A stretch of 20,088 nt of DNA from a virus. Shown here piece by piece: positions 4,561-7,105 of this stretch. The stretch is from the IMG/VR virus record IMGVR_UViG_3300032289_001198, positions 1-20,088 of that record; one strand, written 5' to 3'. The first letter of the stretch is position 1; each line of letters starts with the position of its first letter. The notes below the pieces were generated by a model, which was not told where the DNA came from, did no database searches, and was given only the letters and a program-made list of their open reading frames with translations. Made by a program: the position numbers and the translations under genes.

Positions 4561-4610
4561 GACAAAATTGTAAAGAGGAAGTAAAAGATGTTTATTTGGG
4601 GTGGTTGATA

Positions 4611-4619
4611 TGGTATATA
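4611..4619 (+). promoter_or_regulatory. possible extended -10 for the EF-hand gene
   Basis: TGG followed by TATATA, in the divergent 135-base gap between the kinase and the plus-strand gene. The matching -35 position (TTTATT, 4591-4596) is poor, so this is a weak call. Confidence 0.3.
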
Positions 4620-4660
4620 TGTAATGTAATCAATGGTGGTTACGTAAAGAAAGGAAACAT

Positions 4661-4978
4661 ATGTTAAAATATCTATTAGTATTAACCGCAGCATTTGTTC
4701 TAAATGCTCAAGAAGGTCCAAAAGGTCCACCTCCAGGTGAAGGTCATCCTCCTCGTCCAAAGTTGACTGAGGAACAAAAGGCACAACGTGCTGCTTTGGT
4801 TGCAAAGTATGATGCAAACAAAGATGGTAAGTTAGACAAAGAAGAACGTACCAAGGTTAGTGATGATGATCGTAAATTAATGAGAAGTTTTGGACCACCA
4901 CCAGGCGGACCAAAAGGTCCAAAATATGATGGTCCATCAAAAGATGGTGATAGACCAAGTAAACCAAAGAAGAACTAA
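4661..4978 (+). CDS. exported proline-rich single EF-hand protein
   Basis: This is the only plus-strand gene in the window, 105 residues. Residues 1-16 form a signal peptide (MLKYLLVLTAAFVLNA) with probable cleavage before QEG. Then come a Gly/Pro/Lys-rich stretch (GPKGPPPGEGHPPRPK), a helix, one canonical calcium-binding EF-hand loop (DANKDGKLDKEE, 51-62, ligands at positions 1, 3, 5, 9 and 12), and a second Gly/Pro/Lys-rich tail. The ATG follows AAAGAAAGG at normal spacing, and a terminator lies 10 bases past the stop, so it is a self-contained unit. Similar small secreted EF-hand proteins are typical of bacterial chromosomes rather than phages. The role is unknown; a host-derived cargo gene is the likeliest reading. 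Confidence 0.85.
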   Translation: MLKYLLVLTAAFVLNAQEGPKGPPPGEGHPPRPKLTEEQKAQRAALVAKYDANKDGKLDKEERTKVSDDDRKLMRSFGPPPGGPKGPKYDGPSKDGDRPSKPKKN

Positions 4979-4987
4979 TAAACAAAT

Positions 4988-5013
4988 AACCCCACTAAAT
5001 TAATAGTGGGGTT
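4988..5013. terminator. bidirectional terminator between convergent genes
   Basis: A perfect 9-bp stem AACCCCACT/AGTGGGGTT around the loop AAATTAAT, T-rich on both strands. It lies between the plus-strand EF-hand gene and the minus-strand 5037-5351 gene and serves both. Near-copies lie at 5404 and 5941. Confidence 0.85.
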
Positions 5014-5036: not shown

Positions 5037-5351
5037 TTAGGCTACGGTATTTGGATCATTGTCACTAGCAGCTTCCAAACGAGCAGCTTGTGCATTTACC
5101 AAATCAGCAGCAGCTTGAATTGCTTCTTCACTTGGATGTGGAGTGTTTAATACTGTTACAGCACTATCAGTTGCAGCACTCAAACGTGCCAATGCGTCTT
5201 GTAGATTATTAATTGCGGACATAATTTTATCTAACCTTTCAGTTTGTTGTTTGTTACTATCTAAAACAGCTTTCAATAACTGTGGATCATAACACTCGTT
5301 ATTATCATTATTACCAAAAACCGCCTTAAAAAACTTTTTTAGTGTATTCAT
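5037..5351 (-). CDS. hypothetical helical protein
   Basis: A 104-residue, alanine-rich, mostly helical protein. A short basic, amphipathic N-terminus (MNTLKKFFKAVFG) could touch membrane. A heptad-like stretch at about 25-65 (KQQTERLDKIMSAINNLQDA) suggests a coiled coil, and the tail is rich in Ala and Asp. No family is recognised. It stands alone between terminators at 4988 and 5404, with a possible promoter at 5374-5401. Confidence 0.72.
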   Translation of the reverse strand: MNTLKKFFKAVFGNNDNNECYDPQLLKAVLDSNKQQTERLDKIMSAINNLQDALARLSAATDSAVTVLNTPHPSEEAIQAAADLVNAQAARLEAASDNDPNTVA

Positions 5352-7077: not shown

Positions 7078-7105
7078 AATTTACCACGACTTTAAAGAAA
7101 GTCAA
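7078..7105 (-). promoter_or_regulatory. sigma70-like promoter of the Rnl1-like ligase
   Basis: -35 TTGACT (7100-7105), 16-base spacer ending TGG, -10 TAAATT (7078-7083), 6 bases before the ATG. A second TTGACT lies 5 bases further upstream (7105-7110). Confidence 0.68.

Follow-up and report, generated by a model that had tools for sequence, protein, structure and literature searches.

A conserved phage gene for an exported EF-hand protein under probable host envelope-stress control

Introduction

In bacteria, the canonical feature of CpxP is a pair of LTxxQ motifs, as described in the excerpted text of PMC5063474, and an excerpt of PMC6737893 places cpxP upstream of cpxRA, with divergent transcription. 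In E. coli and Pseudomonas, the regulator CpxR recognises GTAAA-N4-8-GTAAA; the site at P. aeruginosa cpxP is given as GTAAAGCTTGGGTAAA (PMC12802237, PMC5063474, both in extract). A second point of reference is provided by cyanophages, in which pstS and other genes are controlled by the host PhoBR system in relation to phosphate stress, according to an extract of PMC10976474; the same extract records that boxes predicted in phage genomes have failed binding tests before. A search of a limited literature collection, by title and abstract opening, returned no phage EF-hand gene in Verrucomicrobia and no Cpx-regulated phage moron.

Here, we describe a small phage gene that encodes an exported-type EF-hand protein, runs against its neighbours and carries a CpxR-type box in its promoter. 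We compare its family in viral and bacterial genomes, and weigh the case for control of the gene by a stress regulator of the host.

Results

An exported EF-hand protein encoded against the surrounding genes

The window analysed here is the whole 20,088-nucleotide stretch of viral DNA (positions 1 to 20,088 of IMG/VR record IMGVR_UViG_3300032289_001198). An initial annotation had singled out a lone plus-strand gene with its own ribosome site and terminator, a signal peptide, one perfect EF-hand loop and flanks rich in Gly, Pro and Lys. This anatomy was borne out on re-examination: the 105-aa ORF is present as described, the other convincing ORFs in the window's ORF list are all on the minus strand, and the remaining plus-strand ORFs of at least 50 aa overlap minus-strand genes. 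The features of the gene are as follows.

4650-4657, plus strand: putative ribosome-binding sequence AAAGGAAA, directly 5' of the ATG; most relatives keep AAAGGAAA
4661-4978, plus strand: EF-hand gene, ATG start, exported-type protein of 105 aa
4661-4708, plus strand: signal-peptide-like N-terminus, residues 1-16, ending in LNA before Q; by inspection, retained in relatives
4763-4777, plus strand: LTEEQ, an LTxxQ motif, residues 35-39; LTxxQ is shared by 30 of the 34 distinct family proteins from viruses
4811-4846, plus strand: canonical EF-hand loop DANKDGKLDKEE at residues 51-62, matched by Pfam EF-hand_5 below its cut-off (E 0.0012)
4988-5013, strand not assigned: GC-rich, terminator-like inverted repeat between convergent genes; relatives keep an inverted repeat

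The protein runs from a hydrophobic N-terminus ending in LNAQ through a Pro/Gly-rich part, LTEEQ and the EF loop to a basic tail rich in Pro, Gly and Lys; in its presumed mature form it holds 21 K/R against 15 D/E. The loop fits the canonical 12-residue pattern (D-x-D/N-x-D-G-x-hydrophobic-x3-E) and is the only strict one in the six frames of the window, while a loop of this kind arose in 0.5% of 200 codon-shuffled windows. Not one of the 34 distinct viral family proteins examined lacks the canonical loop, an invariance that is partly a matter of ascertainment, because NKDGKLDK served as one peptide of the first scan; in L220 and L234, which were reached via neighbouring genes, the loop is retained in altered form (DADKDGKLSKEE and DANKDGKMDKEE). 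Pfam EF-hand models matched at E values of 0.0012 and 0.011, with scores below the curated cut-offs (18.7 bits against 25.9, and 15.7 against 25.4). No second loop, as in paired EF-hands, is present in the 105 aa. Searches of PHROGs and NCBIfam with the protein gave no match, and neither did a protein search of annotated phage records. AlphaFold predicted helices at residues 37-50, 60-64 and 68-76 around the loop, with poorly modelled flanks (mean pLDDT 66). Foldseek found no match to this model at E 0.001 or better, and a second structure search gave only matches of Z 2.5 or less, in part to calcium-binding EF-hand chains. From its sequence, the loop would be expected to bind calcium.

Downstream, the T run that follows the inverted repeat is longer in most relatives than the TTTGC of the window. 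In a terminator scan, the window copy scored on the minus strand but not on the plus strand, and the repeat may therefore serve both convergent genes. The convergent neighbour (5037-5351, minus strand) has a weak match to Metal_resist (E 0.0012, below cut-off), with no signal peptide seen, which is probably a chance coiled-coil likeness.

Elsewhere in the window, the 56-aa product of the minus-strand gene 18798-18968 matches the prepilin-type N-terminal methylation motif of Pfam N_methyl above the cut-off (E 1.8e-5). This is a pilin-like leader in a phage, and the PHROGs that match the protein are of unknown function. The product of 940-1845, also on the minus strand, is a Band 7/SPFH (prohibitin-like) protein that begins like a lipoprotein and for which the best PHROG is phrog_200, "lipoprotein". 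A tRNA search of the window found none.

Distribution, synteny and age of the family

Relatives of the EF-hand protein are encoded by 56 viral-contig loci and, as a search for bacterial homologs proposed in the initial annotation revealed, by 50 bacterial loci, nearly all of them in Verrucomicrobia. G015, in which L058 lies, carries the label Pedosphaera; in its class, a homolog at E 1e-10 is present in 29 of 188 genomes, and the single-EF-hand exported proteins of Verrucomicrobia are usually present in one copy per genome.

Among the viral loci, L002-L031 and L036 share neighbours with the window and are referred to as group 1. In all 31 of these loci the EF-hand gene runs against every shared neighbour, and in L031 and L036 further plus-strand ORFs follow it. 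Scans with the neighbouring genes recovered the gene, together with the promoter box described below, at the same locus in all 16 related contigs with sequence spanning the site, a count that leaves out L224 and L226, whose contigs end short of it. In the more distant L241, L242 and L244, the EF-hand gene is absent from the available sequence. Group 2 (L032-L055, apart from L036) has almost no neighbours in common with the window; in one of its loci, L038 (5299-13464), the EF-hand gene is opposed and lies between the genes for tail tube and tail sheath. Near it in the same locus lie genes for a homing endonuclease and for a product that matches a "phosphoheptose isomerase" PHROG. L056 and L057 form a third case, in which the EF-hand gene is co-oriented with its neighbours.

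Median dN/dS in group 1 is 0.193 (151 pairs from 18 sequences). The EF-hand gene has a GC3 of 0.17; 24 other window genes average 0.277 (sd 0.073). In a tree of 62 rows, a single supported set (98) unites 18 group-1 phage rows, deeper order is not resolved, and a single phage clade is not rejected (p-AU 0.70). The combination of GC3, dN/dS and synteny leads us to reject a recent transfer of the EF-hand gene. The earlier suggestion of a moron-type cargo gene taken from a host thus stands as regards an apparently autonomous unit with bacterial relatives, while a recent or sporadic pick-up is not supported: orthologs as core genes in related phages, which the initial annotation had named as the refuting finding, do occur within this phage group, being present in every spanning contig.

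A CpxR-type box in the promoter

The region upstream of the gene contains the following elements.

4564-4587, plus strand: extended regulator box AAAATTGTAAAGAGGAAGTAAAAG, supported by the relatives' alignment, by the host regulator boxes (core and flanks) and by the published CpxR consensus
4569-4586, plus strand: box core TGTAAAGAGGAAGTAAAA, GTAAA-N6-GTAAA, part of the extended box
4591-4596, plus strand: putative weak -35, TTTATT, 4 bp past the box, proposed from position and spacing
4614-4623, plus strand: putative -10 region TATATATGTA, TATGTAT in most relatives, proposed from conservation in most aligned promoters

The box, TGTWAAG-N5-GTAAAA, is a direct repeat with a period of 11 that occurs in the window and 22 relatives, which are all 23 aligned group-1 promoters. 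Its spacing equals that of the P. aeruginosa cpxP site as given in the extracts cited above. The distance from box to start codon is 92-97 bp, shortened to 60 bp in L029, L031 and L036, the loci from which conservation of the putative -10 is absent. A sigma-70 scan listed no promoter-like site on the plus strand just 5' of the gene.

Occurrence of the box follows group 1 closely. The window and 31 of 31 other group-1 loci each contain a single box, and the 75 remaining loci (107 in total) contain none. Over whole records, seven of eight large group-1 contigs (51-174 kb, the longest 174,551 bp) contain one box, and the pattern read backwards has zero copies in the same eight. When the 150 bp upstream of each gene were scored against GTAAA-N6-GTAAA, at least nine of ten positions agreed in every one of the 22 distinct group-1 promoters, with 16 perfect matches. 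Among 248 other genes of the same contigs, 10 reached that score and 3 matched perfectly. Because the sequences are kin, these counts are not independent. The corresponding figures in group 2 were 5 of 13 against a background of 5 of 148, so the box there is decayed or only partly shared; in L050 and L056 it is absent. The constraint on the box is apparent from its contrast with the variable bases between it and the -10. The eighth large contig, L010, has a second box-like match 5' of a T4-type RNA ligase gene, as does L024; these may be sigma-70-like promoters that resemble the box by chance. The window's copy of this match is weaker, with two mismatches, and lies at 7079-7096 on the minus strand.

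The box and its regulator in Verrucomicrobia

A search for the box pattern in 384 genomes of the class holding G015 gave a match in 144, for which no overall enrichment is claimed, and led to box sites just 5' of a response-regulator gene. The best NCBIfam models for its product were OmpR (204.7 bits) and CpxR (203.2 bits), and because both are below cut-off the regulator is labelled OmpR/CpxR-type here, not CpxR. Of 188 genomes searched at the protein level, 39 encode this regulator. A box is located at most 350 bp upstream of the regulator gene in 19 of 30 Verrucomicrobia loci and absent from 11, one of the 19 not being independent because the query regulator was itself chosen through its box. 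In strand and pattern controls on the 28 parsed regulator loci, the forward box was found in 19, the antisense in none and the reversed in none; PhoB-type regulators of the same class had a box in 0 of 30 loci. Agreement between 18 host and 24 phage boxes extends to bases outside the repeats, including GAAAATT before the box (flank agreement score 9.2; after column permutation, mean -6.8 and sd 4.2, with 0 of 2000 permutations as high). The 11-bp repeat had at first been read as a Pho box, a reading rejected on the grounds that host boxes precede OmpR/CpxR-type, not PhoB-type, regulators.

An EF-hand gene stands head-to-head with the OmpR/CpxR-type regulator gene in 7 of 30 loci, against 0 of 30 for PhoB-type regulators. 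The seven genes start 113-295 bp away on the other strand, and most of their products begin like a signal peptide and have Pro/Gly-rich stretches; as a control, exported-like EF-hand ORFs were found in 4 of 77 pieces of 1.5 kb. At these loci (L170, L172, L177, L182, L184, L194 and L196) the operon consists of regulator and sensor kinase. In one such kinase, that of L155, a Pro-rich stretch precedes the second membrane segment. In L140, a box is found 124 bp 5' of a gene for an exported, Pro/Gly-rich EF-hand protein with two loops, one case among roughly 50 host box sites viewed, most of which precede other things; the other genes behind host boxes are mixed, many of them not interpretable.

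The head-to-head and box-linked host proteins stand further from the phage protein than its closest relatives do. The latter have one loop and no box: none was found upstream of the closest bacterial EF-hand homologs, either in L058-L107 or in L108-L127. Few genomes carry both an EF-hand homolog and the OmpR/CpxR-type regulator. It is therefore not obvious that box and gene were acquired together from the hosts examined. In a search for host links, a relative of phage gene 2876-3352 was found in 1 of 384 genomes, at 47% identity.

Discussion

The data are best explained by an old, conserved phage cargo gene that is under Cpx-like control by the host and has a general role in envelope stress, a reading to which we assign a probability of about 0.55. 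The conserved CpxR-type box was missed by the initial annotation, and what had been called a cargo gene therefore becomes a cargo gene under probable host stress control. The host itself would be a Verrucomicrobium. Disturbance of the envelope, by infection or by another insult, would activate a Cpx-like sensor-regulator pair of the host, and the activated OmpR/CpxR-type regulator would bind the box adjoining the weak -35 and switch on this single gene, the expression of which could thereby be independent of the surrounding minus-strand phage genes. Binding and activation at the predicted box are proposed from sequence; in our judgement, control by the host regulator is well supported on that ground and likely. 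Once in the envelope, the exported protein would most likely act as a CpxP/Spy-like partner, damping the sensor or protecting the envelope until lysis; CpxP is the closest likeness because of the promoter and the motif. Given control by the host regulator, we judge such CpxP-like action to be somewhat less than an even prospect. The fuller scenario is tentative and, on the whole, doubtful: several phage lineages of Verrucomicrobia would carry an EF-hand adaptor of CpxP type, induced by the host stress regulator in infection and feeding back to the phage's favour.

The box could instead be read by phage-encoded transcription machinery or a phage activator, so that the gene would be timed by the phage programme. 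Its strict conservation in group 1 is consistent with this, and phage regulators having few sites exist, but we consider such a reader unlikely given that the box is almost unique in contigs of up to 174 kb and that its flanks match those before a bacterial regulator.

Other explanations concern the protein rather than the box. One possibility is a moron of surface or superinfection-exclusion type, whose exported product would bind calcium and alter the host surface or phage adsorption; stress control would then be incidental. Export, the basic tail and the autonomous promoter and terminator all agree with such a function, as does the reversed gene between tail genes in group 2, a classic place for a moron; yet no anchor, lipobox or adhesin-like domain was seen in the protein, which is small and, in the AlphaFold model, has long stretches of low confidence, and this alternative appears unlikely as well. 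The same group-2 position, between tail tube and tail sheath genes, might suggest an accessory protein of lysis or the virion, in which calcium would serve to disrupt the envelope or stabilise the virion. The opposite strand, the gene's own promoter and terminator, box conservation far above background and the lack of a match to any lysis or structural family all argue against it, leaving this the most improbable of the explanations considered.

Comparison with known systems

The phage protein resembles CpxP and Spy, as far as these are described in the extracts cited, in being small and exported, in its LTxxQ motif and in the CpxR-type box upstream of its gene. It differs from CpxP in having one LTxxQ motif instead of two, and in its EF-hand loop and Pro/Gly/Lys-rich flanks; it shows no match to the Pfam LTXXQ family at E up to 0.1. 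Its gene is carried by a phage and does not adjoin cpxRA, no two-component gene being recognised anywhere in the window's ORF list. The cpxP-like divergent setting is found instead in the seven Verrucomicrobia loci with head-to-head EF-hand genes, an arrangement like that of cpxP with cpxRA.

Among bacterial proteins, the single-EF-hand exported proteins of Verrucomicrobia (such as L058 and L061) share with the phage protein a signal peptide, an LTxxQ-like start and the loop KYDxNKDGKLDKEER, but they have no CpxR-type box upstream, and their tails are shorter and less Pro/Gly-rich. The EF-hand proteins of L170, L172, L177, L194, L196 and L140 are likewise exported and Pro/Gly-rich and are associated with the same regulator or box, but usually have two to four loops and are not the nearest relatives. 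By sequence, the lone reversed unit with promoter and terminator of its own is that of a phage moron, though one fixed in its phage group, not sporadic.

As with the PhoBR-controlled genes of cyanophages (extract of PMC10976474), a phage gene is here preceded by a box of a host OmpR-family two-component regulator; unlike those genes, the box is a predicted envelope-stress box of Cpx type, not a Pho box, and is read from the sequence of a single gene. If the proposed control is true, host two-component control of phage genes would be extended from phosphate to envelope stress, a signal probably triggered by infection itself, with the box as a directly testable promoter. It would also point to an EF-hand protein as the partner in the position of CpxP in a Cpx-like system of Verrucomicrobia.
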